Source of the DNA: Bdellovibrio sp. ArHS
GTDB lineage: Bacteria; Bdellovibrionota; Bdellovibrionia; Bdellovibrionales; Bdellovibrionaceae
Reading direction: 5' to 3'
NCBI RefSeq assembly: GCF_000786105.1
Contig: NZ_JTEV01000003.1
Span: 62,001-126,000 of the forward strand
Length of the DNA stretch: 64,000 nt
Below the pieces are notes generated by a model. The model had not been told where the DNA came from and did no database searches. It saw only the letters and a program-made list of their open reading frames with translations. Positions 7,156 through 47,290 of the stretch are shown piece by piece. Positions within the stretch are counted from its first letter, which is position 1. Each line of letters opens with the position of its first letter. Position numbers and translations under genes: made by a program.

Positions 7156-8535
7156 TTGGAACTTTCGAACTTTATCGGCGGGGAGTTCGTCCCTGCTGAA
7201 AGTAAATCCACATTTTCTAAATTCAATCCCTTTACTGGTCAGCTTTTAGCTTCGGTGTCATCATCGGACGCCATGGACGTCGTCAAGGCGTTGCAGGTCG
7301 CAAAGAAGGCGGCTCTGGGTTTTAAAGACACGACGACGGAACAACGAGCGGATTTATTAAATTCCCTCGCGCAAGCTTTGCAGAACGACGCGGATCAAAT
7401 TGCTTATGAAGAAGCGCTTCATCAGGGGCTTCCGCACTCTTTCGTTTTAAAAAACAGTGTCGAAGTCGCCGTGCGAGTCTTGCGTGATATTGCCGAAGAT
7501 GTGCGCCCTGCTCAAGACTCCCAGATACGCTATCAACCTTCTGGGATCGTCGGCATCATCACATCCTGGTGTTGTTCATTGCGTTTGATCGTGGAAAGAA
7601 TGGCTCCGGCATTGGCTGCAGGAAATGTGGTTGTCGTTAAAGTATCGGAACAGTCTCCGATCACAGCGAAGATTCTGGGCGAGTGTTTACAGAAATCTCG
7701 GATCCCAGCCGGTGTTGTAAACATCTTGCAGGGAAGTGCTGAAGTGGCGCAAGTGATTGCAGGTCATCCCAGCATTCGCGCTGTGACGGCGGCGGGAAAA
7801 ACTTCAACAATCGAAGCGATTGCAAAAGTCGCATTGCCTCAGTTTAAAAAGCTTCAATTGAGTGGCGGTGCCAAGAATCCTTCTGCCGTGTTGGCGGAAA
7901 CAGATTTCAAAAGTCTTCTTCCAGAAATTCTGCGTCCGTTCCTTATGGGACAGGGGCAGATGTGCTGGAATGTGTCCCAGTTGTTTGTGCTCGAGTCTTT
8001 AGCTCCTGAATTTCTAACTGCCTTGAAAGACTATCTAACGACTCTCAGACCCCTAAAAGATCCGCGGGGAAGTGAGACCTGGACACCTTTGATTTCGGAA
8101 GCCTCAGTGCGCAACATTGATCAAAAGATTCAAAGTGGTGTTGGCGAACACGGAAAAATTTTTGTGGGAGGACCGGCGGAAGAAGCGGGCTATTTTTATA
8201 GGCCGACAGTGATGCTCGATCTGCCTCATTGCAGTCTTCTTCAGCAAGATGAATTGCATGGGCCTCTTCTCTTGGTGACCCCTGTGAAGTATCAGCACGA
8301 GATACAAAAATGGGCGAATACCTCTTATCTCGCCCACTCGGCGGTGATCTGGGGGCCGACAGAAAAAGCGTTGAAGGTGGCGTCATCCTTGGACGCCGCC
8401 CATGTGTGGCTTAACTCCTGGACACCTGGCGAGGCGCCGGTGGTCTTTGGACATAAGCAGTCGAGCTTTGGTAATCTCGACATGTCATGGAACGGGTCGT
8501 TTTATTCGGATGTAAAAAAATTGGCGGGCCTCTGA
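7156..8535 (+). CDS. Aldehyde dehydrogenase-like protein, key residues altered
   Basis: 459 residues from a TTG start that has AGGA 7 bases upstream. The fold is clearly of the NAD-dependent aldehyde dehydrogenase superfamily: AAGNVVVVKVSEQSP, the glycine turn after LQLSGG, and Cys270 in GQMCWN. Two conserved catalytic positions are lost: the oxyanion Asn of PWNFP is Cys139 (SWCCS), and the general-base Glu of LELGG is Gln234. It may therefore be inactive as a dehydrogenase or use a different chemistry. It follows the cheD-cheB gene by 9 bases on the same strand and probably belongs to that transcript, although a metabolic enzyme there has no obvious role. Confidence 0.85.
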   Translation: MELSNFIGGEFVPAESKSTFSKFNPFTGQLLASVSSSDAMDVVKALQVAKKAALGFKDTTTEQRADLLNSLAQALQNDADQIAYEEALHQGLPHSFVLKNSVEVAVRVLRDIAEDVRPAQDSQIRYQPSGIVGIITSWCCSLRLIVERMAPALAAGNVVVVKVSEQSPITAKILGECLQKSRIPAGVVNILQGSAEVAQVIAGHPSIRAVTAAGKTSTIEAIAKVALPQFKKLQLSGGAKNPSAVLAETDFKSLLPEILRPFLMGQGQMCWNVSQLFVLESLAPEFLTALKDYLTTLRPLKDPRGSETWTPLISEASVRNIDQKIQSGVGEHGKIFVGGPAEEAGYFYRPTVMLDLPHCSLLQQDELHGPLLLVTPVKYQHEIQKWANTSYLAHSAVIWGPTEKALKVASSLDAAHVWLNSWTPGEAPVVFGHKQSSFGNLDMSWNGSFYSDVKKLAGL

Positions 8536-8561
8536 TTTCGTCAGACTCTTGACGAAATCAG
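8532..8561. terminator. Perfect 12-pair hairpin between convergent genes
   Basis: CTGATTTCGTCA and TGACGAAATCAG pair perfectly around a 6-base loop. The 5' arm includes the stop codon of the aldehyde dehydrogenase-like gene, and the zinc-ribbon gene ends 24 bases further on from the other side. It could serve as an end for both transcripts; there is no clear T tract. Confidence 0.65.
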
Positions 8562-8584
8562 GTGTTAGAAAATTGACAAACCCC

Positions 8585-8791
8585 TCAGTTTAAAACATGG
8601 GTTTTGTTGCGAGTTTTCACTTCGCAATGCGGGCAGAAGGCTTCTTCCTTGATTTCATCCGTGGCACGATCGGCGATGTGTTTTAGTTCCAGAACGGTAC
8701 CGCAAAGTATGCAATTGTTTTGGGAAATTATAAACTCACGATGTTTCGGAGTGTCTGTTTTTTCAAAATAATTGATCTTGCTGTATTCCAT
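8585..8791 (-). CDS. Small zinc-ribbon protein
   Basis: 68 residues. I use the ATG at 8791, which has AAGGACGAG upstream at good spacing, not the upstream ATG that adds 22 unlikely residues. Two CxxC knuckles, CILC and CPHC, are 23 residues apart and should bind one zinc. Nothing else is diagnostic. Small proteins of this kind bind nucleic acid or act as adaptors, but the function here is unknown. Confidence 0.7.
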   Translation of the reverse strand: MEYSKINYFEKTDTPKHREFIISQNNCILCGTVLELKHIADRATDEIKEEAFCPHCEVKTRNKTHVLN

Positions 8792-8972
8792 GTTGTCTCG
8801 TCCTTCGAGTTCTTCGCTTACGTACGGGCAAAGGCTCCATCCTGGAGCAAATCTCAATCACTGCAAAAGCTGTTCACAGGCCAACGTCCGGACTTCGGCT
8901 GAAATGCTGCGCTAAGACCCGTTTCTTTCTGCATTCATTCTTGAAGAGCGAATGGCGGAAGGAGATACAAAG

Positions 8973-9881
8973 ATGAAACATAAAATTTTTAAAGTGCTGT
9001 TGGTCGTGCTGCTTGTTCCTCTATGGGGTTGCGTTGAGGTCAAGGATAAAGAGCCAGGGGCTGCTCCTGAAATCCAGGAAGCCGTGGCTGTCCCCGAATA
9101 CGAAGATCTGACGATTGCCGAAGACCTTTATCTTTATCAAGGCCAATTCCTGAGTGCCGACGAATTGCAGAATCAGGGAAGAGCGGAGGAGCTTTCGCGC
9201 CAGAGTGAAGCGTACTCGTTTCGCTTTAGAAAGCTGACTTTCACTTCAAGTGGACGATTATTTACGATGGGCCACAAGTTGACTTTGCAGTTGGATGAGT
9301 TGGTTTCTGACAATGGACAAGTGGCGACTTTTCCTGAACAAGCAGTGGCTCCGCAAGGGCACAATGGACGTCATGGAGGACATATCTATATCGCTGCAAA
9401 AAATGCCAGCGGTTTTATGACTATCACTCTTCGTGGAGAAAAAGGAGGCCTTGGACTTGCCGGTCCTGATCCCGATACCGCTTTGAAAGGAACCAGGGGT
9501 GTGGATGCGGATAAAATCAAATGCTTATCGCTTCGCAAAGAAGAGTTTTGTTACTCGGGACCCGGGAATCCCGGCTTGAAGGGCTATCCAGGAGGGCAAG
9601 GCGGGAGTGGGGGAAATACGGGAACACTGTCCCTTGAAGTGAAGGCTAACGATGTATTCCAACCGCAAATTTATAGAATCGTCGGCCCGGGAGGTGATGG
9701 CGGTCCAGGCGGACTTGGTGGAGAAGGCGGCGATGGCGGGCATTCGTATCGCAAAAATCCACGAGAAGGGGCGGGGCATCAAGGTCCTCGGGGGCCGCAG
9801 GGCGATCGGGGCCCACAAGGATTGGACGGAGTTCAGGAAGCGTTTTGCTCCATTGACGCCAAAGGCAGCCACTGTTTTTAA
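8973..9881 (+). CDS. Lipoprotein with a glycine-rich, collagen-like C-terminal half
   Basis: 302 residues. The start at 8973 is chosen because AAGGAGA precedes it by 7 bases and it gives a lipoprotein signal peptide ending in the lipobox LWGC. The middle (about 60-140) is a beta-rich stretch. From about residue 120 the chain turns into Gly-rich blocks such as GPGNPGLKGYPGGQGG, GPGGDGGPGGLGGEGG and GPRGPQGDRGPQG. Only parts follow a strict Gly-X-Y pattern, so a true collagen triple helix is uncertain. It is likely anchored in the outer membrane and exposed. It converges on the kinase gene with a single base between stop codons. Confidence 0.8.
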   Translation: MKHKIFKVLLVVLLVPLWGCVEVKDKEPGAAPEIQEAVAVPEYEDLTIAEDLYLYQGQFLSADELQNQGRAEELSRQSEAYSFRFRKLTFTSSGRLFTMGHKLTLQLDELVSDNGQVATFPEQAVAPQGHNGRHGGHIYIAAKNASGFMTITLRGEKGGLGLAGPDPDTALKGTRGVDADKIKCLSLRKEEFCYSGPGNPGLKGYPGGQGGSGGNTGTLSLEVKANDVFQPQIYRIVGPGGDGGPGGLGGEGGDGGHSYRKNPREGAGHQGPRGPQGDRGPQGLDGVQEAFCSIDAKGSHCF

Positions 9882-30901: not shown

Positions 30902-31726
30902 ATGGGCTTAAGAATCGCAACAAATACTGCATCAATCGCAGCACAACGTGTGCTAACCAAGCAACAAAAACGAGCGGAACACTCAGCGCAGGCTCTGGCG
31001 TCGGGTTCACGCATCGTCAATGCCGCCGACGACGCTGCCGGTTTGGCAATCTCAGAAAACTTTAAAGGACAGTTGAAAGGTATTGCGCAAGCGCGCAACA
31101 ACGCGAACAACGCGATTTCATTCTCACAAGTGGGTGAGGGTGGACTGAGCGAAGTTTCTAATATCTTGATTCGTCTCCGTGAACTCGGAGTACAAGCGGC
31201 CTCAGACACTGTCGGTGATACGGAGCGCGGGTTTCTCAACAATGAGGCCCAGCAGTTGGTTCAAGAAGCTGACCGTATCGCAAAAACCACTACTTTCGGT
31301 AATACCAAACTTCTTGATGGTTCGGGCGGGAAATTAGAATTCCACGTCGGGGCCTATGGAGGAGAAGAAAATATCATAGCCTTCGACTTCGATGCTAACG
31401 CGACAACCAGTTCTTTGGGGATCAGTGGTATTGATGTTTCGGATAAGTCGGGAGCCCGCGATACTCTGCAGTCTGTCGATGAAGCGATTCAAAAAGTCGG
31501 TTCACTGCGCGCGAGTTTCGGTGCGATGCAATCTCGATTGGAGTCATCAGTAAGCAACCTCGACGTTTCTTACGAAAACTTGTCTGCCGCCAACTCTCGT
31601 ATCCGCGACACTGACGTGGCGAAGGAAACAGCCGAGATGGCATCAGCAAGTATCCTGCAAAACACGGCGGTATCGGTTTTGGCGCAAGCCAACCAATTAC
31701 CGAACGTAGCAATGAAACTAGTATAA
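30902..31726 (+). CDS. fliC: Flagellin
   Basis: 274 residues, a short flagellin made only of the conserved D0/D1 ends without a variable D2/D3 region. The N-terminal domain has SGSRIVNAADDAAGLAISE and the C-terminal domain has LSAANSRIRDTDVAKETAEM. There is no Cys, as usual. It polymerises into the filament after export by the type III flagellar system. The stretch LTKQQKRAEHSAQAL is more charged than the matching region of the second flagellin at 32941. The start has TAGGAGG at good spacing. A FliA promoter and a long leader lie upstream and a strong terminator downstream. Confidence 0.96.
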   Translation: MGLRIATNTASIAAQRVLTKQQKRAEHSAQALASGSRIVNAADDAAGLAISENFKGQLKGIAQARNNANNAISFSQVGEGGLSEVSNILIRLRELGVQAASDTVGDTERGFLNNEAQQLVQEADRIAKTTTFGNTKLLDGSGGKLEFHVGAYGGEENIIAFDFDANATTSSLGISGIDVSDKSGARDTLQSVDEAIQKVGSLRASFGAMQSRLESSVSNLDVSYENLSAANSRIRDTDVAKETAEMASASILQNTAVSVLAQANQLPNVAMKLV

Positions 31727-32940: not shown

Positions 32941-33774
32941 ATGGGAATGAGAATTTCTACTAACGTATCAGCGATCAACGCACAGAGAACTATGGTTACT
33001 TCTCAGCGTTCAATCGGTAAATCCATGGAGCAATTGTCTTCTGGATCACGTATCAACAAAGCGGCAGATGACGCTGCGGGATTGGCGATCAGTGAAAACT
33101 TGAAATCGCAAATCAGATCATTGAGCCAAGCAGGCCGTAACGCCAACGATGGTATCTCAATGGTGCAAACTGCAGAGGGTGGCTTGAGTGAAATTTCTAA
33201 CATCTTGACTCGTATGAGAGAGTTGGGTGTTCAGGCTTCATCTGACACGGTTGGTGATGTCGAGCGTGGCTTCCTTGATAAAGAGGTTCAACAATTAAAA
33301 GCTGAAGCTCAACGTATTACGCAAACAACTAAATTCGGAACTACAAAACTTCTTGATGGTTCTGGTGATAAATTTGACTTCCAAGTCGGTATCAACAACA
33401 GTGAAGACGCAGATAGAATCTCGTTCAATGCTGGTGAAACTGACTCTACAATCTCGGCTCTTGGAATTGATGGTTTCGACTTCTCTTCTAAGGCGGGTGC
33501 GCAAGATGCTCTTGAGTTGGTGGATAAAGCTCAATCTCAAGTGAATGGTTACCGAGCAAATCTGGGTGCCCTTCAAAACCGCTTGCAATCCACTGTTGAT
33601 AACTTGGGTGTGCAACATGAGAACATCTCTGCTGCGAACTCTCGTATCCGCGACACTGACGTAGCTGCGGCAACTGCTGAGTCAACTCGTAACTCAGTAC
33701 TCTTGCAGGCGAACACGGCGGTGTTGGCACAAGCGAATGCGATGCCTAACTCAGCATTGAGATTGATCGGTTAA
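32941..33774 (+). CDS. fliC: Flagellin
   Basis: 277 residues, again only D0/D1 flagellin ends: SSGSRINKAADDAAGLAISE near the start and ISAANSRIRDTDVAAATAES near the end. It is a close paralogue of the gene at 30902, about 1.2 kb upstream, but follows the usual flagellin consensus more closely. Filaments of predatory bacteria are built of several flagellins, and the two copies may occupy different parts of one. Its codon use is visibly richer in CGT, GGT, TCT and AAC than that of the upstream copy, as in highly expressed genes, so it may be the major subunit. Confidence 0.96.
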   Translation: MGMRISTNVSAINAQRTMVTSQRSIGKSMEQLSSGSRINKAADDAAGLAISENLKSQIRSLSQAGRNANDGISMVQTAEGGLSEISNILTRMRELGVQASSDTVGDVERGFLDKEVQQLKAEAQRITQTTKFGTTKLLDGSGDKFDFQVGINNSEDADRISFNAGETDSTISALGIDGFDFSSKAGAQDALELVDKAQSQVNGYRANLGALQNRLQSTVDNLGVQHENISAANSRIRDTDVAAATAESTRNSVLLQANTAVLAQANAMPNSALRLIG

Positions 33775-35333: not shown

Positions 35334-35463
35334 AGAACCTCCATTTTTTTTGCTTCGATTGTGGCACAGGGATGATGTCTGAAGAACGTCGAAGAGAGGT
35401 GTTTGCGCAATCACAGCTTTTGGGCTGTCTCAGAATGAGATGCGCTGTTGGTTTACGGAATAT

Positions 35464-35490
35464 TAAGATACCCCCGCCTTACTCCGATAA
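35464..35490 (+). promoter_or_regulatory. Possible FliA-like promoter of the papain-like protease
   Basis: TCCGATAA (35483-35490) matches the sigma-28 -10 at seven of eight bases. At exactly 11 bases upstream the -35 position reads TAAGATAC, a weak match. The protease ATG lies 10 bases after the -10. Confidence 0.4.
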
Positions 35491-35500
35491 GTCAGCAGTC

Positions 35501-36547
35501 ATGAAAATCTTCTGGATCGTCGCTTTTTTTCTTTTTATGTCGCAAGCTCACGCGGATGAGAATTGTTCGTCCATAGACTATCGCAAAGAGTTGGGACCGA
35601 ATCGTGACCAAGGGGACTTAAGTTGGTGTTTTGCCTACACGTCGGCGGATCTTATTTCTCAGCGTGTGAAGACGCGGGTTTCTGCAACAGATATCGCTTC
35701 CACGTTTATTTTGGCGGACCCTTATAAGCTTGAAGATTCGAACCGACCCGAAATTAAGCAGTACCTTCAGGACAATCCGGAAATATACACTCGGTTGCAA
35801 AGTGTTCGTCTTGAGGCCGCGGGAAAATACGATCCGCAGCACATCCTTAAAAAAGAAGGTTTGATGGATACGGGCGGCCAAGAAGATGCCGCCATCATTC
35901 TGGCAAATACTAAAGGCATGTGCAGCGAGAAAAACTTCCCATCCACCGAATCAAATCAAACGCGCTTCTTTGACGAGATCATGAAGCTTCATAAGAAGCG
36001 CAACCAGGCGCACGTGAAGAAGAATAATTGTGATCTGTTTCAGACGCAGGCGGATTTCACTTCGGCGGTGGTCGATCCTTTTGCGGTAGCGATCACGAAT
36101 ATTTATGAAGAAGAGCGCGACCGAAAATGCCAGCGAAAGCCGTGGCCCGTGCCACTTGTTCCGATTATGACCAAATACGGAGACAGCCTGGAAGAATACG
36201 AGACACGTATCAAGAAAGGCGAAATCACGAAAGAGCAGGGCGCAAAAAAACTCTTCGAAACCATTGATCATGCATTAGAGAACGGTCGGGTGGCAGGCAT
36301 TGGCTACAATGCTTACACGCTGATGGCACCTGAAGAAGGTGAAGATGCCAAACATGCCGATCACTCCAGTGTTATTGCGGCTCGAAAGAAAGTCGGCGGG
36401 AAATGCCACTATCTCATTCGCAATACATGGGGCAGTGACTGCAGTATCTATTACGAAAAATTTCACAAGCGGTGTGAAAAGGGTAATATCTGGGTCACGA
36501 AAGAAGAACTGAAAGAGTCTTTGTATAGTGTTGTGTATATGAAATAG
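35501..36547 (+). CDS. Papain-like (C1 family) cysteine protease, secreted
   Basis: 348 residues from the ATG at 35501, which gives a clean signal peptide (MKIFWIVAFFLFMSQAHA); the longer frame upstream overlaps the small basic gene region. The C1 signature is present: the oxyanion Gln37 and Cys43 in RDQGDLSWCFAYTSA, a later HADHSSVIA with the catalytic His, and LIRNTWGSDC with the Asn. The insertion between Cys and His is larger than in papain (about 215 residues). It is exported and may digest prey or its own envelope proteins. No propeptide is obvious. Confidence 0.85.
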   Translation: MKIFWIVAFFLFMSQAHADENCSSIDYRKELGPNRDQGDLSWCFAYTSADLISQRVKTRVSATDIASTFILADPYKLEDSNRPEIKQYLQDNPEIYTRLQSVRLEAAGKYDPQHILKKEGLMDTGGQEDAAIILANTKGMCSEKNFPSTESNQTRFFDEIMKLHKKRNQAHVKKNNCDLFQTQADFTSAVVDPFAVAITNIYEEERDRKCQRKPWPVPLVPIMTKYGDSLEEYETRIKKGEITKEQGAKKLFETIDHALENGRVAGIGYNAYTLMAPEEGEDAKHADHSSVIAARKKVGGKCHYLIRNTWGSDCSIYYEKFHKRCEKGNIWVTKEELKESLYSVVYMK

Positions 36548-36606: not shown

Positions 36607-36981
36607 ATGAATATCAAAGGAATGATTTCGAATATTCTGCCCAATAATGAAGTTCGCAATGTCGAACGGATCGGGCAGGCTATTAAGTCGGATCAAACCA
36701 ATGATCGCGATGCCAACGGCCAAGAAACCTATTCCGGCAATCAAGAACAGCGCGAACCCATGACAGAAGAACAGCTTGAGAAAGCGATGGAGCATTTGCG
36801 CAGTCTGCCGGCGATGAAGGAACACAAGTGGACTGTTGAGTTGGATGCCGATGAAAAAGGACGCTTCGTTGTCGTGAAAGACAACCTGGGCGCCGTGATT
36901 CGCCGAATTCCCGAACTTGAATTGTGGACTTTACCCTCGGACAACTCTCCTCGAGGACAGTTACTAAAGCGATCTGCTTAA
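36607..36981 (+). CDS. flaG: FlaG-like flagellar protein
   Basis: 124 residues. The C-terminal half fits FlaG: a strand-rich WTVELDADEKGRFVVVKD followed by GAVIRRIPELELW, like the family's V-x-D-x-x-x-G-E-V-I-R-Q-I-P. The N-terminal 60 residues are polar and variable, as usual. FlaG is encoded just before fliD and fliS in many bacteria and affects filament length; that order is kept here. There is no Shine-Dalgarno before ATG36607. The next in-frame ATG (36622) has AAAGGA too close to it. Confidence 0.8.
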   Translation: MNIKGMISNILPNNEVRNVERIGQAIKSDQTNDRDANGQETYSGNQEQREPMTEEQLEKAMEHLRSLPAMKEHKWTVELDADEKGRFVVVKDNLGAVIRRIPELELWTLPSDNSPRGQLLKRSA

Positions 36982-37153: not shown

Positions 37154-38521
37154 ATGGCAGGAATACGCTTTACAGGGATGGCCTCTGGCTTACCACCAAA
37201 TATCGTTGATCAGCTTATGGAAGCTGAGCGTATTCCCGTGAAACAAATGGAAGTGCAGAAGACCAAGCAGGAAGACAAGTTGAAGCTTGTCACTGATTTG
37301 GAAACCAAAGTCAGCGACATCACAAAAAATCTGGGAGAGCTGACTTCCACAAGCGGTTTCATCGACAAGAAATTTGTCAGCGGTGATCCGAATGTGATTG
37401 AGGGGCAAGTCGACCCGAACTCGGCGATCCCCGGGGACTACTCCATTGAAGTGGTGCAATTGGCGCAAAAGCCGGCGGCTATTTCAAATGGATTTCCCGA
37501 TAAGAACGAAACCCAGATCGGCGTGGGTTATATCAAGTTCGATACTCCGGAAGGAGTGAAGGAAGTTTACATTAATGGCGCTAACTCAACATTGGAAGGC
37601 GTGGTGAAGCAAATCAACGCCGCCAATGTCGGATTGAAGGCGCAAGTGTTGGAAGATCGAAAGGACGCGGAAAATCCTTTTAAACTTTTGATTTCCGGTC
37701 TTTCAACAGGAAAAGACAATCAGGTGGCCTTTCCGAAGATTTATCTTTTGGACGGTGACCAGGACATGTATTTCGACCAATCCCGCCCGGCCCAGAATGC
37801 CAAGGTGAAAGTCGACGGATTTGAAATTGAGCTTCCTGATAATAAGTCCACGGATTTAATTCCGGGTGTGACTTTGGATTTCAAGTCGGCGGCCCCGGGA
37901 CGCGAAATTCGCATGAGTGTAAAAGAAAATCTGGAAGTCATCAGCGGTAAAATCAAAAGTTTCGTTGAGGCTTATAACGGTGCTTTGGACTTCATCCAAA
38001 AGCAGAGCAAGTTGCAGGCGGGTGACGGCAAGAATCCCAAACTGGGTCCTTTGGGCGGTGATGGGATGCTTCGTTCGATCGAGAACTCACTGCGCCGAGT
38101 GATTCTGAATCCGACAATGGGTGTAGAGACACCGATTCGTCGTGTGGGTGAGTTGGGGATTGAGTTTAATAGAAACGGTACCTTGAACTTCAATCAGGAC
38201 AAATTCAACAAAGTGTTGAATGCGAATCCTCAAGGGGTGGCGGCTTTCTTTAGGGGAGACGGCTTTAGCACGGGATTTGTGTCGACGGTGAAGCGAGAGA
38301 TCGGAAACTTAATGAACGGTCAGTTTGGAACTATTGCAAATCGTAAAAAGGGTTTGCAGGACCGGATCAATCAGGTCAACGGACGGATTGAAACCAAGGA
38401 ACGTCAGTTGGAGCGAAAAGAGGAAAGTCTGCGACGTAAATTCGCGGACCTGGAATCGAAGATGTCGGACATGCAGGCGCAACAGGCTCGTTTCGCCGCG
38501 ATGGCTCCGAAAGCGGGTTAA
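37154..38521 (+). CDS. fliD: Flagellar filament cap protein FliD (HAP2)
   Basis: 455 residues. The N-terminal FliD domain starts with GIRFTGMASGLPPNIVDQLMEAERIPV, the classic hook-associated protein 2 entry, and the C-terminal part ends with a long coiled coil (RINQVNGRIETKERQLERKEESLRRKF) that inserts into the filament. The cap aids insertion of flagellin subunits at the growing tip. The protein has no signal peptide because it leaves through the flagellar export apparatus. fliS follows 38 bases later. Confidence 0.95.
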   Translation: MAGIRFTGMASGLPPNIVDQLMEAERIPVKQMEVQKTKQEDKLKLVTDLETKVSDITKNLGELTSTSGFIDKKFVSGDPNVIEGQVDPNSAIPGDYSIEVVQLAQKPAAISNGFPDKNETQIGVGYIKFDTPEGVKEVYINGANSTLEGVVKQINAANVGLKAQVLEDRKDAENPFKLLISGLSTGKDNQVAFPKIYLLDGDQDMYFDQSRPAQNAKVKVDGFEIELPDNKSTDLIPGVTLDFKSAAPGREIRMSVKENLEVISGKIKSFVEAYNGALDFIQKQSKLQAGDGKNPKLGPLGGDGMLRSIENSLRRVILNPTMGVETPIRRVGELGIEFNRNGTLNFNQDKFNKVLNANPQGVAAFFRGDGFSTGFVSTVKREIGNLMNGQFGTIANRKKGLQDRINQVNGRIETKERQLERKEESLRRKFADLESKMSDMQAQQARFAAMAPKAG

Positions 38522-38559: not shown

Positions 38560-38955
38560 ATGAACAAGAACGCGTACCAAAAATATAAAACGACCTCGGT
38601 GCAAAGTGCCAGTCGCGAGAAGATTCTTTTGATGCTTTATGAAGGAGCGATCAAATTCACAAAGCTGGCAATCAAAGCCATTGAGGAAAAAAAGATTGCG
38701 GACCGGGGTATGAATATCGGGCGGGCGTTCGATATTATCATGGAATTGAACAACACCTTGGATCACAAGGTCGGCGGCGACGTCGCGGTTCAGTTAGAAC
38801 AGCTCTATATGTTCATGATGGAACAGTATACCAAAGCCAACATCTCGGGGGATGTGGAACCCTTGAAGGCCAACTTAAAGCTGTTAAACACGCTTTATGA
38901 TGGCTGGGTGCAGGCCGTTGAAAAATTGAAGAAAGAAACAGAAAAAGCAGGCTAA
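38560..38955 (+). CDS. fliS: Flagellin export chaperone FliS
   Basis: 131 residues. The start reads NAYQKYKTTSVQSASREKILLMLYEGAIKF, the standard FliS signature with MLYEGAIKF. It is a cytoplasmic four-helix chaperone that keeps flagellin unfolded before export. It is in the expected position downstream of fliD, and GAGGG precedes the ATG. Confidence 0.96.
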   Translation: MNKNAYQKYKTTSVQSASREKILLMLYEGAIKFTKLAIKAIEEKKIADRGMNIGRAFDIIMELNNTLDHKVGGDVAVQLEQLYMFMMEQYTKANISGDVEPLKANLKLLNTLYDGWVQAVEKLKKETEKAG

Positions 38956-38974: not shown

Positions 38975-39400
38975 ATGACTAGGATTATCACGTTGCTGAA
39001 CGAAAAGAATCACTACCTCGAGAAGTTCTATTCACTGAATGAAGTGGAGTTGGCGAACTTTGCCCAAGGGCAGTTTGATAACTTGGAGCACTTTTATCAG
39101 ACTCGCGAAAGAATTCTTGAAGTTCTAAAATACGTCGACGCACAAATCGAAAAAGTGCACGACGAAGAAGCACAGCAAAACGGCATCACGGAAGGTGAGC
39201 GTCGCGAAGTGAAAGAGGCGTTGGCAATCAAGGATGAATATGTTGCCCGCATAATCGAACAGGATATCCAAGTCTTGGCTTGCATTGAGATGGCGAAGAA
39301 CTCGATCATCCGTGAGCTTCAAGAAGTGCGACGGTCTCGCAAAGCGGTGGGTGGTTATAAGAGCAAGACTTTCAATAATCGCTTGAACGAAGAGGTCTAG
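38975..39400 (+). CDS. Probable flagellar chaperone (FlgN/FliT-like helical protein)
   Basis: 141 residues, nearly all helix with heptad-like leucines, and a strong ribosome site (GGAGGGG). It lies 19 bases after fliS, where fliT-type chaperones are usually found. The sequence has EKNHYLEKFYSLNEVELANFAQGQFDNLEHFY, similar in pattern to FlgN/FliT helices 1-2. I call the function by position and shape, not by a diagnostic motif. Confidence 0.65.
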   Translation: MTRIITLLNEKNHYLEKFYSLNEVELANFAQGQFDNLEHFYQTRERILEVLKYVDAQIEKVHDEEAQQNGITEGERREVKEALAIKDEYVARIIEQDIQVLACIEMAKNSIIRELQEVRRSRKAVGGYKSKTFNNRLNEEV

Positions 39401-39499
39401 GAAAATATTTCCTGACAAAATCATGACGGCAAGTTCAGGCAAAGAGTCAAATCTCCCCGCCGAACTTGCCTCAAATCTCATAAAAGTGAAATAAAGCTT

Positions 39500-39545: not shown

Positions 39546-40595
39546 ATGTTGGAAAATCAGATCGTTCAAAAGTCCAGTGATTTATCTGGAATTAATGCAA
39601 ATGCCGAAAGTCCTGTTAAAGAGTCCGGCAAAATCTATTTTGACCCACAACAAGCTATCTCAGAATTTGAAGCCGAGTCACAGACAGAGAAAGAAGCTCC
39701 TGTTCAGGATCCTCGTGTTGCTAAGTTCATCCAAAATGCCCGTCTCTTGATGAAGCACAAAGAATATTCTTTGGCGATGAATCTTCTGCGTCAGGCGAGC
39801 AACGTGGATTCGAAGAATCCAGCGACACTTCAACTTTTGGCATCTTGCCTGGAGACAACGTCTCGCCTGGACGAAGCTTTGGTTGCGCGTAAGACCTTGG
39901 CGCAAGTTGACTACAACTTCGAAAATATGTGTCGCTACGCCACGATGCTTTATAAGGTGGGCCGCGATCAGGAAGCACTAGATAAGTATTTCGAAGCTTT
40001 GGCCATCTTGACAGAAGAAAACGACTATCTGTTCGAGGTCTATAAAAACATGGGTAACATCTTTGTCCGACAAGGCGACTTTGATGCGGCCGAAGAATAC
40101 TATAATAAAGCTTATACGATGAATTCGCAGAGCGACATTCTTCTGGTGAACTTCGGAACATTGGAAGTACAACGAAATGACTTCGACAAGTCTTTGTATT
40201 GTTTCCGCAAAGCCGTCGAGATCAATCCCGAAAATGACAAAGCTTGGGTCGGGTTGGCAATGGTCCACAACCAGTTCGGTGATAGTGATCTGGCTTGGGC
40301 AAACATAGAGTCGGCTTTGGATATCAATCCGCAAAATAGAACGGCGGTTCATTTGGCGGCTAACTGGGGTTTGCGCGATGGTAAGCTGCAAAAAGCTATT
40401 GAAGCTTTGCAATCGTATCTGGCCTCTGTCGAGGAAGATGAAGACATGTCCTTGGTGTTGATCAATCTGTTCTGCTCGGCAGGGCAGGTCGATAAGGCCT
40501 TGATTGAGATGGAGAGAGTTCTGTTGTGGAATCCCGATCACAAAGAGGTCCGCGAACTGAAAAAGAAGATTCTTCACTCTCAAAAGGTGGCTTAG
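39546..40595 (+). CDS. TPR-repeat protein
   Basis: 349 residues. After a 60-residue polar start, at least six tetratricopeptide repeats follow (for example AVEINPENDKAWVGLAMVHNQFGDSDLAWANIESALDINPQ with the typical A-x-x-x-P spacing). TPR proteins act as scaffolds and occur in flagellar glycosylation and assembly loci. It is the first gene after the sigma-54 promoter and is followed by the Rossmann, GT9 and kinase genes with minimal spacing. The substrate or partner is not known. Confidence 0.85.
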   Translation: MLENQIVQKSSDLSGINANAESPVKESGKIYFDPQQAISEFEAESQTEKEAPVQDPRVAKFIQNARLLMKHKEYSLAMNLLRQASNVDSKNPATLQLLASCLETTSRLDEALVARKTLAQVDYNFENMCRYATMLYKVGRDQEALDKYFEALAILTEENDYLFEVYKNMGNIFVRQGDFDAAEEYYNKAYTMNSQSDILLVNFGTLEVQRNDFDKSLYCFRKAVEINPENDKAWVGLAMVHNQFGDSDLAWANIESALDINPQNRTAVHLAANWGLRDGKLQKAIEALQSYLASVEEDEDMSLVLINLFCSAGQVDKALIEMERVLLWNPDHKEVRELKKKILHSQKVA

Positions 40596-40597
40596 TT

Positions 40598-41209
40598 ATG
40601 TCGATGATTACATTTTCTGAAAATCATGAATCGACTTTGGTGGCCTTTGAATCCGGTGAAGCTTTGGCGTCCTTGCGCGATCCGCGTGGTGAAGCCTTGA
40701 AGTGGGTGTACTCTTTAGGCGCAATTCCCACTTCGCATGTCGTGGTTGTCGGCCTGGGCTCAGGATTTCATATTGCCGCGTTGGCGGACCTCGACCCAAC
40801 TCTTAAAATCACCGTGGTCGAGTCGCGAGAATCGTTGATTCCTGTTTTTCGTTCACAATTTCCGGAGCTGCAGGACCGCATTGAAATCGCGGTGGTGCAG
40901 AACGTGCAAGATATTTATAAAGCGGATTTCTTTCAGGAAATCCTGAGCAGTCGTTCTTACGTCCTTTCCTTCAACGAATGTTGGGGGCAAAATACGCAAT
41001 TCTTTTCCGAGGTTTTTGCTGCATTGACGGGACGCTCGGTTGAATCCGTGAAATATCATTTTGAAGAATTTAATATCAATATCAAAGCTTTGTATTTGGA
41101 GCAGAACAAACTTCTTTCCCTAAAGGACCTGGTGCCCGTAGTGGAAGCGTCGGTGATGCCTGAAAATAAAAAGCAGATTTTCCGTCTACTCGGTGAATTG
41201 GTGAAATAA
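40598..41209 (+). CDS. Rossmann-fold protein of the flagellar cluster
   Basis: 203 residues from the ATG at 40598, three bases after the TPR stop and with AAGGTGG upstream; an upstream start inside the TPR gene is unlikely. VVVVGLGSGFHIAAL followed by TVVESRE is the G-x-G-x-G nucleotide-binding loop plus acidic strand end of SAM-dependent or Maf-type flagellin glycosyltransferase N-domains. At 203 residues it is much shorter than Maf proteins. The stop overlaps the next start (TAATGA). Confidence 0.65.
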   Translation: MSMITFSENHESTLVAFESGEALASLRDPRGEALKWVYSLGAIPTSHVVVVGLGSGFHIAALADLDPTLKITVVESRESLIPVFRSQFPELQDRIEIAVVQNVQDIYKADFFQEILSSRSYVLSFNECWGQNTQFFSEVFAALTGRSVESVKYHFEEFNINIKALYLEQNKLLSLKDLVPVVEASVMPENKKQIFRLLGELVK

Positions 41210-42783
41210 TGAAAATATTAGTGCTGTCGCTGTTAAGATTGGGCGATATCATTCAACAAGCACCCTTGCTTAAAGGGTTGCGCGAGAAGAATCCTGACGC
41301 CGAGATTCATCTGCTTTTGAATCGTCAGTTCGCGAACGTTGAAAAAATTCTGGACGGCGTTGTTGATGAGTATATTTACTTTGAGCGCGAGGCTTTGCAA
41401 AAAAGTTTGGGTGACGCCTCTTGCAATATTCTTTGGTCTTATCAGCAAGTGGAAAAATTTGTGGAAAGCCTTAACAGCGAAGGCTTTGATCAGGTCATCA
41501 ATCTGACCCATAATAAGCTCAGTGCGTATTTGATGGGCACTTTGAACGTGCCTGACAAAAGAGGCCTTTACCAGCAAGAGGGTCGCTTTCAAGGCCTGTC
41601 CAATCGTTGGCTGCGCTACTTCAATGATCGTTTTTCCGGGACCCAGAAGTCCCTGTTCCATTACGTGGAGCTGTTAGGGAAAGCCTTCGACATTCCGATC
41701 GAAATGCAGAACTTAACACCTGCCAGAAAAAGCAAGCTTGTGCTGCTTCAATGTCTGACCAGTGATCAAAAGAAGAACTGGGGTTTGGATAGATTTCAGC
41801 AGTTGAAACGAACGATTGAGATTTCACTCGTCGATTATGAAGTCATGGTTTTAGGGGCTGCTTTTGAGCGGGACACGCTTTTGGAAGTGTTTCCTGAAAA
41901 GGATCTGCTTATTTGCGATCTTCCCGAAGCACGCAAACATTTACAGAACGCGGCCCTGCTAATTTCCGGGGACACAAGTATCAAACACATGGCGGCCCAG
42001 CTCGGCACGCCTATTGTGGAAATTGCGATTGGCAGCAGCGATCCCGCTAAAACAGCGGCGTATTCATCTCGTGCCGTGGTCATTCAAACTCAAGTTGCGT
42101 GCGCGCCCTGTGCGCATTCACAGGCCTGCCCTCAGCCTAGTCATCTTTGTGCTGAGGATGTTTCAGTCGAACAGGTGTTTGGCGCGGTGTGGGATCAACT
42201 GAGTGGTGAAAAAATGGCGCAAAGAAATCTACAGCTTTCTTTAGAAAAAGCCGTTTGGACTTTATATTTGGATAAAGCCAACGCTCAGGTGGAACCTTTT
42301 TACGCTTCGGCCGTGGCCCAGTTTTTAAACCATCATCCATTAGAAAGTTTAAAGGCGGCACTACCGGCCTGGAATGAACGGACGGCAGACTATCGTCGCT
42401 GGCTTGAAAAAGCCAATGAGGTTTTGCCGACGCGGGAAGAGCTTGCGATAAAGCGAAGTTTTCAAACTTCAGATATCGCGGATCTGATTCTATGTGCGCA
42501 AGAAATTCTGAAGTCAAAGAAAGATGAGGTCGGCTACTTCCAGGTTTTTGTGGAAGCGTTGCTGTCTCGATTCAATCAGCCTGTGCAAATCTATGACCGT
42601 GTTGCGGCGGCGTTACAAGATGTTGAAGAGCTATTGAGTATTCGCGAATCATTCACTCGTCATTTGCAAACGATCTCTATGGAAGGGGCATACTATGCAA
42701 AAGGAATTGGACAACTATCTATCGGTGGCTTTGAAGAGATTGGAAAAGGCCTACAGCCAAATCCTCAAAACGCAGAGTTATAA
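41209..42783 (+). CDS. Glycosyltransferase family 9 (heptosyltransferase-like), extended
   Basis: 524 residues, against about 340 for typical GT9. The N-terminal 340 residues are a GT-B GT9 enzyme: MKILVLSLLRLGDIIQQAPLLKGLRE, DLLICDLPEARKHLQNAALLISGDTSIKHMAAQLGTPIVEI, and a Cys-rich CAPCAHSQACPQPSHLC loop as in WaaF-type enzymes. The last 180 residues are helical and match nothing I know. Being in a flagellar operon, it may glycosylate a flagellar protein instead of lipopolysaccharide core. It overlaps the next small frame. Confidence 0.85.
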   Translation: MKILVLSLLRLGDIIQQAPLLKGLREKNPDAEIHLLLNRQFANVEKILDGVVDEYIYFEREALQKSLGDASCNILWSYQQVEKFVESLNSEGFDQVINLTHNKLSAYLMGTLNVPDKRGLYQQEGRFQGLSNRWLRYFNDRFSGTQKSLFHYVELLGKAFDIPIEMQNLTPARKSKLVLLQCLTSDQKKNWGLDRFQQLKRTIEISLVDYEVMVLGAAFERDTLLEVFPEKDLLICDLPEARKHLQNAALLISGDTSIKHMAAQLGTPIVEIAIGSSDPAKTAAYSSRAVVIQTQVACAPCAHSQACPQPSHLCAEDVSVEQVFGAVWDQLSGEKMAQRNLQLSLEKAVWTLYLDKANAQVEPFYASAVAQFLNHHPLESLKAALPAWNERTADYRRWLEKANEVLPTREELAIKRSFQTSDIADLILCAQEILKSKKDEVGYFQVFVEALLSRFNQPVQIYDRVAAALQDVEELLSIRESFTRHLQTISMEGAYYAKGIGQLSIGGFEEIGKGLQPNPQNAEL

Positions 42784-42868
42784 CCAGGAAGCCGAAAGAG
42801 TTCAGTTGTTAAAAGAACTTATTAAGGAACAAGTGAAAAATGAAAATACTCGTCATACAACTCGCTAG
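42695..42868 (+). CDS. Small coiled-coil-like protein bridging the two GT9 genes
   Basis: 57 residues (MQKELDNYLSVALKRLEKAY...) in a frame that overlaps the end of the first GT9 gene by 89 bases and the start of the second by 29. GGAAGGGG precedes its ATG. The sequence is a plausible amphipathic helix rich in Lys, Glu and Leu. It may be a genuine coupled small gene, or the frame of the first GT9 gene may have shifted here; the GT9 C-terminus past 42700 (IGKGLQPNPQ) looks less protein-like than this frame does. Confidence 0.5.
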   Translation: MQKELDNYLSVALKRLEKAYSQILKTQSYNQEAERVQLLKELIKEQVKNENTRHTTR

Positions 42869-44306
42869 ACTTGGCGATATCTATATGTCGTGGCCAGCGA
42901 TGCGCGCTCTTCGTCGTGCGCATCCTAAAGCTGAGATTCATTTTCTGACTCGGCCGCGCTTCGAGGGCGCCGTCGAAGGACTGACGGCTATTGATAAGCA
43001 TCTTTCCTTGCCGGTCAGCGCGATTTTGGCTCCGCTGATTCAAGAAGATGCTGATACCGAAGCGGCTTTGGCAACCTTGAATGAATCAGTGGATGCTCTT
43101 CGTGACGAGCACTACGATTGGGTCATTAATCTGACTTTTTCGCCGGTTTCGAGTTATCTGACACACGCAGTGACGGGGCCGACGACCACCGTCACAGGGT
43201 ACACGCGCTATAGTGACGGGACTCTGTGTCTGGCTGATGAGGTGAGTGCTTACTTCTATGCCCAGGTGGGGACCGACAAGCCGAACCGTGTGCATGTAGT
43301 GGACGTAATCGCTTCCATGTTAAATTTAGAATACATCGAGGCGGACTTCGCGGCCCCTCAGATTGAGAACTTCGCGACGCCACTTCCCGAAACTTATTTA
43401 GTGGTGCATGTGGGGGCGAGTGAAAAACACAAGTCGCTTTCTCCGGAAGAATGGGCGCAGCTTCTTAAGCCGGTGGCGGCCACGAAGATTCCGGTGGTTT
43501 TGATCGGAGCTGCGGGCGAAGCCGCTTTGGCAGAAGAGATTCAAGCGCATGCCATTGAAAACGAATTTGTTAATCTGGTAGGACTGACAAAGATTTCTGA
43601 TATCTTTGCGATCCTTCAAGACGCCGAGTTGTTAATTGGTTGCGACAGTGCGCCGATTCATATGGCCTCTTTGACGGACACGCCGACGTTCAACGTGAGC
43701 ATCGGGGATGTCAATTACTGGGAGACGGGGCCGAAGTCGACCTTGGGATTCATCTATCGAGTCGAAAAAGGCCACAAGGTGGATGCGAACAGAGTGGGTG
43801 AGTGTATTACCGGACTTCTGCAAGGACAGGTGGCGCCCGAGTTGATCACGCGCGCGGCAGGGCTTGTAAGCTACGAAAAGAACGAAGCCGCTAGCGAACG
43901 TTTCCAATGGGATTTGGTTCAAGCTCTTTATTTAGGCGCCTCTTATCCTTTGGCGGATCGCATGGAAATTCTTCAGGGCGCGACGCAATTAGCGGATATC
44001 AATAAGTTCGCGATGGAGCAGATAGCCCTGATTCCCGAGAAAGGTTTGCAAAATATCGGACCTTTCTTAGATCGTTCCGAAGAAGTTATTGAAAGTATTA
44101 GCCGAATGGTGCCCGAGCTGAGTCCTCTTATTAGCTGGTATCAAGCGGAAAAGGTTCGCGTTGGTCCCGGCACTTTAGAGGAGATTTGTACCGCAGCCTT
44201 AGATGTGCATGAAAGATTGGCTCGCCATATTCATGTTTACGTTCCTCAAGAAGCTCTTCTTGAGCAAGAAGAGAAAGTGGAGGAGGTCTGCGATGGAACG
44301 CTTTAA
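42840..44306 (+). CDS. Second glycosyltransferase family 9 protein, extended
   Basis: 488 residues. It opens with KILVIQLARLGDIYMSWPAMRALRR, has YLVVHVGASEKHKSLSPEEW in the C-lobe (the sugar-nucleotide phosphate turn), and ELLIGCDSAPIHMASLTDTPTFNVSIG near 290, all GT9 features. The last 150 residues are helical and resemble the extension of the preceding GT9 only in type. The two enzymes probably work in sequence on the same acceptor. It overlaps the following gene by 14 bases. Confidence 0.85.
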   Translation: MKILVIQLARLGDIYMSWPAMRALRRAHPKAEIHFLTRPRFEGAVEGLTAIDKHLSLPVSAILAPLIQEDADTEAALATLNESVDALRDEHYDWVINLTFSPVSSYLTHAVTGPTTTVTGYTRYSDGTLCLADEVSAYFYAQVGTDKPNRVHVVDVIASMLNLEYIEADFAAPQIENFATPLPETYLVVHVGASEKHKSLSPEEWAQLLKPVAATKIPVVLIGAAGEAALAEEIQAHAIENEFVNLVGLTKISDIFAILQDAELLIGCDSAPIHMASLTDTPTFNVSIGDVNYWETGPKSTLGFIYRVEKGHKVDANRVGECITGLLQGQVAPELITRAAGLVSYEKNEAASERFQWDLVQALYLGASYPLADRMEILQGATQLADINKFAMEQIALIPEKGLQNIGPFLDRSEEVIESISRMVPELSPLISWYQAEKVRVGPGTLEEICTAALDVHERLARHIHVYVPQEALLEQEEKVEEVCDGTL

Positions 44307-44976
44307 GGTGTCTGGACAGGATTTACGTGACTTTTATAAAGAGAATATCGTTTTAGGGAAAGTTTTTACCGACATTGAAAACGATCTGCGCTCGACCAAT
44401 CAGGTCGTTTGCCGTTACATTGTGAACGGTCTTGAAATCAATGAAAGTGAAGAAGCGCGCTTTGCCACTGTGCCTTTGGAACAAATTGAAACCTTAGAGT
44501 ACTTAACTGAAAACAGCCGCGATTTGACCGCCATCGTTTTGAAGGGATGGATCGAAGCCTTGCCAGAGCTGATGCAGAAGACCGAAAATCTGGCGAAAAG
44601 AATGCGGGTGCAAGGTTTGAGTGGGCTGTTGAAGCCAATCCATGATTTGGTGCAAAATTGTGAATTTCTGATCGACAGTACCTTGAGCGTTAAGGAGATG
44701 ATGGGCGATCAGTTTCTGGTGTCCAGTCCAGTGGATTGGTTTAAAGCGGAACAGGCCAGCAAGAACACCGTTTTGCAGGCGCTTCGCGCATTAGAAAATA
44801 AGGATTTTGTTCTTTTAGCCGACGTCCTAGAGTATGATTTGAACAATGTTCTGCAAATGTGGTTAGATCATTTGCGAGTGTTGGAGAAGTCACTGAATGG
44901 CGAATACACAGGATCTCATATCCATTCCGAACAAACTGGATCCCATCCTGTGGGTCGGAAACGTCTCGCCAATTAG
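44293..44976 (+). CDS. Helical protein of unknown function in the flagellar cluster
   Basis: 227 residues from the ATG at 44293, which has AGGAGG 6 bases upstream; the earlier frame start is not supported. It is all helical with Leu/Val-rich segments and no signal peptide or membrane segment (MERFKVSGQDLRDFYKE...). The C-terminus overlaps the next gene by 80 bases. I recognise no domain. Its context suggests an adaptor for the glycosyltransferases or for the kinase. Confidence 0.65.
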   Translation: MERFKVSGQDLRDFYKENIVLGKVFTDIENDLRSTNQVVCRYIVNGLEINESEEARFATVPLEQIETLEYLTENSRDLTAIVLKGWIEALPELMQKTENLAKRMRVQGLSGLLKPIHDLVQNCEFLIDSTLSVKEMMGDQFLVSSPVDWFKAEQASKNTVLQALRALENKDFVLLADVLEYDLNNVLQMWLDHLRVLEKSLNGEYTGSHIHSEQTGSHPVGRKRLAN

Positions 44977-46933
44977 ACTGCCTCACTTCTTTCCCTTTCA
45001 AAAAAGGGAAGTGGAGATTGTTTTCAAGGCCTCTTGTTCTGAGGCCTTGTCTCTTTTAAAAACGCAGAAGTTTTCCTCGATCTTAGTCCAGAATAGCGCC
45101 AGCGATGACAGCCTTGAGTTTTTGGTTCAGGCCCGTCTTTATCAACCCATGGCGCCACGCCTGTTGATTGCTGAAGATCTTAGTGAAAGTGAAGTGCGCG
45201 AGGGAATTAATAAGGCCCAAGTCTATCGATTCATGCGCTGGCCTCTTTCGGAACGCGAGATTTGGGGACAATTGGAAAGCGCTTTACAGAAGCATTCCAT
45301 GTATCTGTCTCGCTCGCTCTTATTAAGAGAATCCTCTCATCAAAACAAACAGTTGGAAGCCTTGACCCACTCTTTAGAGGGGATGGTCGAAGAGCGCACG
45401 CAATATATCGAGATGTCGCACCGGGAAGAATCGGAAAAACTGAACAGGGAACGTCAGTTGGTGCGATTTATCAAGGACCTGGCGACGCAAACGTCTTTTG
45501 AAGACATTTTAGGAATTCTGCGTAAGGAGTTGCGCAAGTTTCATAAAATGGGCGATCCCATTTTGGCTTATCGTTTGGGTGGGGCTAAGACCTTCTTTCT
45601 AAGCTTTCAATTGGGTCACTTCACTCAGACGGAGTCTTTATCTCAATACGAATTTCCCAAAGTCCCGCAGGTGCCCAGCGCCGAACTGATTCGCTATTTT
45701 GCCAATCACTTTGGGCGCCCGTTCATTAAAGCTTATGTCGTCCCTTTAGAATTGCGACTGACCAGTCATTTTGTCGGTGGCGAGGGCGAGGCGATTTTGT
45801 GTATTGAGAACTCTTTATCTGATAAAGAGATGGGTCCTTTTATTGATTTTATGAGCGATCGTATGCGCCCTTTAAGTATGGCGTTGGACCGTGTGCTTCT
45901 GGAAAATCAGCTTTCCAGCTTTTCTTATCGTTGGGAAAAAACTTTCGATGGCATGCGCGATCCGATTGCCATTGTCGATGTTGATTACAACGTCGTACGT
46001 GCCAACAGAAAGTTTTCAGACAGATTTTTGCAACATAAGTGTTATGAAAGCTTTGCGCATCGGAAAACACCTTGTGAGGGCTGTCCCTTGCCGCAGGCCA
46101 TGAAAGAAGGTCATTCGCAAGGCGGTCAGATTCAAGTGGACGGTCGTATCTATCAAGTCCACAGTTACCCCGTCCTCTTGGATCAGGGAACTCGTCCGAC
46201 AAATGTCGTCAATCAATACGTGGATATCACTCAGTCGCGTGAGCTTTATCTGCGCATGCTGCAGAACGAGAAGATGGGGGCCATCGGCATGCTCGCGGGA
46301 AATATCGCGCATGAACTCAACAATCCTTTGACGGGCTTAAGGGCGTTGACTCAGGTTTTGTTACAGGAAGCTCCGAAAGAAGGGCATCTGCATGCGGATC
46401 TTGTCGAAATTGAAAAAGCCACGGCAAGGTCCCAACGTATTATCAAAAATCTTTTGGACTTTTCAAAAGGCGAAGATCAGCCGTCTGAGTTTATCAGCGT
46501 GGACGAGGTGATCGAAAGAACGTTGCCGATGTTGAAATCAGCGCTACGCACCCACCGTCTAGAGGTGGATTTGCAGACGCTGGGGCAGACGGTTTATGTG
46601 GAACCCCATCTTTTACAACAGGTGGTGTTTAATCTTATCAATAATGCCTGTCAGGCGATGAAAGACCCAGGGCGCTTAAGGGTTGCAACGCGCTCTGAAA
46701 AAAATCATGTCTTTATCGAGATTGAAGACACCGGGCCCGGGATTCCTCTGGATATTCAACGGCGCATCTTTGAGCCCTTCTTTACGACAAAAAAAGAAGG
46801 ACACGGAACCGGTCTTGGGTTAAGTATGTCTAAGTCCATCATTGAAAAATTTGGCGGCACAATTCAGTTCCGAAACGTCGAACCTCATGGGAGCTGTTTT
46901 ACTATCGAGCTGCCCCGCAAGGATTCGGAGTAA
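44897..46933 (+). CDS. Sensor histidine kinase with a degenerate receiver and a PAS-like domain
   Basis: 678 residues, cytoplasmic. Residues 15-130 look like a receiver fold that lost its Asp-Asp start (ILWVGNV replaces the acidic pair). A coiled coil, a GAF-like middle, and a PAS-type domain with CEGCP near 395 follow. The NtrB-like kinase core has His472 in IAHELNNP, and the ATPase has EDTGPGI and GTGLGLSMSK. No transmembrane helix is present. A receiver-only gene follows 3 bases later and is its probable partner. Confidence 0.9.
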   Translation: MANTQDLISIPNKLDPILWVGNVSPIRLPHFFPFQKREVEIVFKASCSEALSLLKTQKFSSILVQNSASDDSLEFLVQARLYQPMAPRLLIAEDLSESEVREGINKAQVYRFMRWPLSEREIWGQLESALQKHSMYLSRSLLLRESSHQNKQLEALTHSLEGMVEERTQYIEMSHREESEKLNRERQLVRFIKDLATQTSFEDILGILRKELRKFHKMGDPILAYRLGGAKTFFLSFQLGHFTQTESLSQYEFPKVPQVPSAELIRYFANHFGRPFIKAYVVPLELRLTSHFVGGEGEAILCIENSLSDKEMGPFIDFMSDRMRPLSMALDRVLLENQLSSFSYRWEKTFDGMRDPIAIVDVDYNVVRANRKFSDRFLQHKCYESFAHRKTPCEGCPLPQAMKEGHSQGGQIQVDGRIYQVHSYPVLLDQGTRPTNVVNQYVDITQSRELYLRMLQNEKMGAIGMLAGNIAHELNNPLTGLRALTQVLLQEAPKEGHLHADLVEIEKATARSQRIIKNLLDFSKGEDQPSEFISVDEVIERTLPMLKSALRTHRLEVDLQTLGQTVYVEPHLLQQVVFNLINNACQAMKDPGRLRVATRSEKNHVFIEIEDTGPGIPLDIQRRIFEPFFTTKKEGHGTGLGLSMSKSIIEKFGGTIQFRNVEPHGSCFTIELPRKDSE

Positions 46934-46936
46934 GCG

Positions 46937-47290
46937 TTGAAGATTCTGATCGTAGATGATGAAGCTTTAGTCCGTCGCTCGCTGAGCCGCGCTTTAAAAA
47001 GCAAAGGCTTTGAGGTTCTGGAAGCGACCAACGGTCATGAAGGATTGCAATCCTGGAAAAATTGGGAACCTGATTTAGTTTTTTTGGATGTGTTAATGCC
47101 GGGAATGACAGGGCCCGAGGTTCTGAAAGAAATCGGCTCTGCGAATAAAGCAAAAGTTATTCTGATGTCGGCATTTTCGGGCGAGCATAACATGCAAACG
47201 GCCCAGCAAATGGGTGCCAACCTGTTTGTGCCTAAACCTTTTGAAGATATTTTCGCCGTCGTGAAGATGGCGGAGGACCTGTTAGTATGA
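46937..47290 (+). CDS. Single-domain response regulator (CheY-like)
   Basis: 117 residues from a TTG with GGAG 6 bases upstream. KILIVDDEA holds the acidic pair, Asp51 (FLDVLMP) is the phosphorylation site, MSA and the Lys of PKPFED complete the set. It has no output domain, so it must act by protein contact, perhaps on the flagellar motor or on the upstream enzymes. The rsmD ATG overlaps its stop. Confidence 0.92.
   Translation: MKILIVDDEALVRRSLSRALKSKGFEVLEATNGHEGLQSWKNWEPDLVFLDVLMPGMTGPEVLKEIGSANKAKVILMSAFSGEHNMQTAQQMGANLFVPKPFEDIFAVVKMAEDLLV

Follow-up and report, generated by a model that had tools for sequence, protein, structure and literature searches.

Flagellar glycosylation loci are well known, and two types of cytoplasmic flagellin glycosyltransferase offer the closest comparison with the locus described here. 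Genes of the Maf type flank those for flagellin and for the filament cap protein FliD. The FlmG type, from Caulobacter, joins a flagellin-binding domain that contains tetratricopeptide repeats (TPR) to a glycosyltransferase in a single polypeptide acting with pseudaminic acid (PMC7591256). TibC and the bacterial autotransporter heptosyltransferases are examples of heptosyltransferases whose target is a protein and not lipopolysaccharide (LPS) (PMC4358343). We analysed a window of 64,000 nucleotides on contig C3 of the 3.54 Mb genome of Bdellovibrio sp. ArHS (G000). Behind its flaG, fliD, fliS and chaperone genes stands a module of five genes on the forward strand (39546-44976) that we think rather likely, from sequence comparison, to serve in the cytoplasm as a unit that glycosylates flagellin, and possibly the cap too, ahead of type III export.

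The five frames are present where the original prediction had placed them. The first encodes a TPR protein (39546..40595, several TPR families above cut-off, order conserved); the second a stand-alone Rossmann protein resembling the Maf N-terminus (40598..41209, start ATG 40598); the third and fourth two enzymes of glycosyltransferase family 9 (GT9), GT9-A of 524 aa (41209..42783) and GT9-B of 488 aa (42840..44306); and the fifth a partner protein conserved together with GT9-B (44293..44976). The listed partner start at 44203 has no support from relatives, and the ATG at 44293 was taken. The tight packing attributed to the module holds for most of it: there are 2 bases between the TPR and Rossmann genes, a 1-base overlap between Rossmann and GT9-A and a 14-base overlap between GT9-B and partner. 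However, 56 bases separate GT9-A from GT9-B, and an overlap or 3-base gap is therefore not true of every junction.

The module would resemble FlmG in glycosylating flagellin in the cytoplasm with a TPR-containing binding part and a GT-B-type transferase, but here the TPR protein and the transferases are encoded by separate genes and the transferases belong to GT9. Like TibC it would combine heptosyltransferases with a protein target. The TibC type, however, has an N-terminal beta-barrel and acts on autotransporters, whereas the GT9 domain of both module enzymes begins at residues 1-2 with no preceding beta-barrel, the extensions are C-terminal and helical, and the locus is flagellar. The unusual features are the GT9 enzymes, the detached Maf-N-like subunit, the conserved helical additions and the repeated occurrence of pseudo-enzymes. 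In the literature that could be searched, outside of which most subscription journals lie, we found no report of a GT9 enzyme or heptosyltransferase acting with flagellin, nor of flagellin glycosylation in Bdellovibrio. If our explanation is correct, the module adds a third type to Maf and FlmG among the cytoplasmic flagellin glycosyltransferases, it links LPS-type enzymes to the modification of flagellar protein, and the filament of a predatory Bdellovibrio bears a modification for which no report was found.

Membership of GT9-A and GT9-B in the GT9 family is indicated by PF01075 scores of 56.3 and 56.4 bits, respectively, over a cut-off of 22. With the LPS equivalog families the scores stay far lower than required, at best 64-66 bits versus 185 for TIGR02193 and 46-55 versus 135 for TIGR02195. 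A GT9 tree of 86 rows, to be read with its long branches in mind, contains a branch (100/98) with the GT9s of the flagellar locus on one side and, on the other, the four further GT9 genes found elsewhere in this genome, the LPS-type GT9s of relatives, and WaaC, WaaF and WaaU of E. coli. The flagellar GT9s are a lineage distinct from every LPS heptosyltransferase included, and they are marked by an arginine at WaaC position 10. What they have in common with WaaC and WaaF is the GT9 fold family and its catalytic residues. Equivalents of WaaC D13, K192 and D261 are present in both enzymes of the window. Among aligned relatives, D13 is kept in 27 of 28 GT9-A rows, K192 in 28/28, and D261 and H266 in 26/28 each; for GT9-B the first three are found in all 29 rows and H266 in 26. 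With regard to the four-cysteine iron finger of the TibC type, GT9-A has the cysteine pattern CxxC-x5-C-x6-C, but similar clusters occur in 13 of the 14 LPS-type GT9s here.

Since GT9s of known function mostly make LPS core, and the donor-site residues of the module enzymes are those of WaaC, the GT9s could instead add sugars to LPS. The flagella of Bdellovibrio are enclosed in an outer-membrane sheath; sheath LPS would be one such substrate, with the flagellar position serving co-expression. We regard this as very unlikely. The distinct lineage, the equivalog scores and the four GT9 genes that the genome has outside the module argue against it, and the Maf-N-like, TPR and helical companions, together with the linkage to fliD-fliS, favour a protein target.

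Conservation of the gene order in relatives had been named as a check on the module, and it is extensive. The series flaG-fliD-fliS-chaperone-TPR-Rossmann-GT9-A-GT9-B-partner-kinase-regulator-rsmD, with an occasional gene missing, recurs in approximately 50 genomes of the taxonomic order, and shortened versions are found across the phylum, always directly after fliD-fliS. Families f26 and f27 have TPR, GT9-B and usually the partner in this place, and family f12 has Rossmann, GT9-A, GT9-B, partner, kinase and regulator. Recurrence on this scale makes a chance arrangement untenable. Past the module, the neighbours switch in relatives to unrelated genes, which we take to be those for NAD kinase and RecN, so the module is more than a piece of a frozen region. 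Across the order GT9-B and FliD occur together in 98 genomes, FliD occurs without GT9-B in 24, neither in 18, and GT9-B without detected FliD in only one (G087, which is 64% complete); GT9-B is therefore present in 98 of the 122 genomes that bear fliD (Fisher p 2e-10, uncorrected for shared ancestry). Patterns of GT9-B derived from this phylum were also run against 84,980 species genomes; with such patterns, and with only the best 80 matches retained, remoter relatives could be missed. The retained matches came from genomes labelled as Bdellovibrio relatives and a few metagenome-assembled genomes titled Deltaproteobacteria, Proteobacteria, Oligoflexia or Streptomyces, several of which appear to be genomes assigned to this phylum in another collection.

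Some module genes have been lost together. All seven loci examined in the flagellated genus g17 have jointly lost Rossmann, GT9-A, GT9-B and partner, and the same joint loss has occurred outside that genus in L270; these loci retain fliD, fliS, chaperone, TPR, kinase and regulator. Rossmann and GT9-A are both missing from L088, L095 and families f26/f27. Because these two genes appear and disappear together, the Rossmann protein would be an assistant of GT9-A. In L118 the Rossmann gene is present and GT9-A undetected, and in L249 GT9-A lies on a short contig and the Rossmann gene is undetected. Locus L078 (G010, 8234-9710) differs from G003 by a deletion of about 1.6 kb that fuses a 5' portion of GT9-A with a 3' portion of GT9-B; the two portions are in different reading frames, and both GT9 enzymes are broken in that record.

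The link to Maf is found in the Rossmann protein and in a sister family. Within the Rossmann family, 25 of 40 members match the Maf N-terminal domain PF20157 at E values up to 0.1 (best 3.5e-6); some members also weakly match methyltransferase families, as expected for Rossmann folds. When the family was compared by hhalign with the Maf proteins of this phylum, the N-terminal part of Maf gave a probability of 95.5% and the C-terminal part 0.7%, with 0.6% for the Rossmann methyltransferase RsmD as a control. The Maf catalytic domain PF01973 (MptE-like) has no match in this genome; in contrast to Maf, the N-terminal-like domain stands alone and transfer would fall to the GT9 enzymes. The sister family f28 has FliD and no GT9-B match. 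Its loci, equivalent in position, run from one or two Maf genes through flagellin, a small gene and fliD to fliS, and PF01973 is complete in those of their Maf proteins that were scanned. The flagellins beside Maf in L295, L296 and L299 are of 503-521 aa, versus 274-277 aa for most of those accompanied by the GT9 module. At this locus Maf and the GT9 module look like alternatives to each other, albeit with few independent events.

Flagellar glycosylation, as the original prediction had it, is the best fit to the near-restriction of the module to fliD-bearing genomes, the separation of its enzymes from LPS GT9s, their catalytic residues, the Maf-N-like partner and the Maf genes of the sister family; the acceptor would be flagellin or the cap. 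The likely acceptors in the window are two flagellins, one of 274 aa (30902..31726, + strand) and one of 277 aa (32941..33774, + strand), each with a phmmer match to a relative's flagellin. In our model, flagellin carried by chaperones of the FliS type would be held between these and the enzymes by the TPR protein and by helical domains (the GT9-B extension and the partner). GT9-B and GT9-A, the latter with its Rossmann subunit, would then transfer one or two sugars onto serine or threonine residues of flagellin in the cytoplasm, with export afterwards. No signal peptides were apparent by eye in the module proteins. The retained WaaC donor-site residues make an ADP-heptose-type sugar the most likely donor, and the modification would possibly be a heptosylation.

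Several observations weigh against this explanation. Conserved position by itself is no proof of function. The Rossmann protein of the window has no significant Pfam match, PF20157 included, and its Maf link is made through the family profile. HldE, a gene of the ADP-heptose pathway, occurs in 92 of the 99 genomes with GT9-B; this agrees with the proposed donor without discriminating, because LPS requires HldE too. Neither the length of flagellin nor the one stretch inspected, residues 165-215, differs evidently according to whether lineages of the family bear or lack the module, and serine/threonine content gives no clear acceptor signal in that one stretch. Finally, the catalytically dead GT9-like proteins described below are not accounted for by enzymatic transfer alone.

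Both enzymes were predicted to carry long helical extensions that heptosyltransferases lack, and this is correct for the proteins of the window. The catalytic domain of GT9-A spans approximately residues 1-335 and is followed by a variable helical extension; that of GT9-B spans approximately 1-325 and is followed by a conserved one at about 331-488 (43830-44306). Relative to the LPS GT9s of 319-393 aa, GT9-A has about 190 and GT9-B about 160 extra C-terminal residues. The claim does not carry over to GT9-A of several relatives, in which the whole protein is 365-386 aa and the extension is missing, whereas that of GT9-B is present in every intact relative compared within the order. GT9-A can dispense with its extension, whose proposed role in docking the acceptor is weak because relatives lack it. 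Docking by the GT9-B extension is plausible from the structure prediction: modelled alone from 59 aligned sequences, it forms a confident helical bundle with a predicted local distance difference test (pLDDT) score of 90. The partner, for which a Pfam scan returned no clear family, is modelled as a small alpha/beta N-terminal domain with a four-helix bundle (pLDDT 88). No fold match of the extension or of the partner exceeds helical-bundle noise, within which also fall the FliS chains aligned to the GT9-B extension (Z 7.2, root-mean-square deviation 3.4-3.7, 93-99 aligned). Homology of the two extensions to each other, to the partner or to FliS was considered and found no support, with hhalign at 15% or less and fold matches in the same noise; the alpha/beta domain of the partner was barely covered.

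Several flagellated lineages that seem to lack the module encode, at the same locus, a GT9-like protein without catalytic residues. The profile probability of GT9 homology is 99.7% for L266/L267, 99.5% for the GT9-A proteins of L240, L243 and L255, 99.1% for L278, 98.2% for L277 and 97.5% for L275, and lower for the other dead proteins; the protein of L268 is unsupported as a GT9 in this test. The dead proteins are spread over at least three distinct regions of the 86-row tree, and the partner gene is retained in several of their lineages. Catalysis is consequently not the whole story everywhere: the dead enzymes point either to a part of the function that is independent of catalysis or to a stepwise decay of the enzymes after selection for the modification has ceased. 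These proteins, the clearest of them at 97-99.7%, the retained partner gene and the predicted helical bundles of partner and GT9-B extension would all be accommodated if the main role of GT9-like proteins were a non-catalytic one in flagellin export, as scaffolds or chaperones whose GT fold carries helical docking domains and whose catalysis is ancestral and secondary. That role for the module is unlikely, in our judgement: a scaffold has no need of catalytic residues that are near-invariant in most lineages, and flagellar genes remain in place where the GT9 unit is lost. A scenario joining both roles would have flagellin glycosylated across the phylum by a machinery split into separate proteins, with GT9 enzymes of the heptosyltransferase type in place of the Maf catalytic domain and with the Maf-N-like subunit kept; in several lineages the enzyme would have decayed to a pseudo-glycosyltransferase and survived as a chaperone that handles flagellin. 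We put it forward as a tentative possibility, rather doubtful as a whole. Natural losses and lineages with dead enzymes offer a direct way to test the catalytic and docking roles separately.

Downstream of the module are a histidine kinase of uncertain start (44897..46933, + strand; PF02518, PF00512) and a single-domain response regulator (46937..47290, + strand; PF00072). The pair (44897-47290) is co-conserved with the module, which suggests a flagellar regulatory pair. The module might act on another filament or hook protein, such as the FliD cap, or participate in regulation with the kinase pair, given that FliD, FlaG and the pair are no farther from it than the flagellins. We attach little probability to this; known systems at comparable loci target flagellin, and the pair is separable from the GT9 unit, since it stays after loss of the unit and, in most f26/f27 loci, was not found following the partner gene.

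The genes in front of the module, all on the forward strand, are in the predicted order: flaG (36607..36981, PF03646 25.1 bits, above cut-off), fliD for the filament cap (37154..38521, PF02465 match at G000:C3:99199-99471), fliS for the flagellin export chaperone (38560..38955, PF02561 130 bits, above cut-off) and an FlgN/FliT-like chaperone gene (38975..39400) with weak PF05130/PF05400 matches below cut-off and a conserved place. The 145 bases from chaperone to TPR gene contain a candidate nine-base inverted repeat (39428-39470, GGCAAGTTC / GAACTTGCC) with no T run after it. A simple pattern search detected no sigma-28-like promoter in the window, and promoter and terminator scans gave matches at chance level. 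Just upstream of flaG is a 391-aa protein judged by eye to be cysteine-protease-like (35372-36547), with a relative at or near the locus in only two of the other loci compared. In strain HD100, fliS is Bd0612 (PMC9140294), and the module should be within the tags that follow it.

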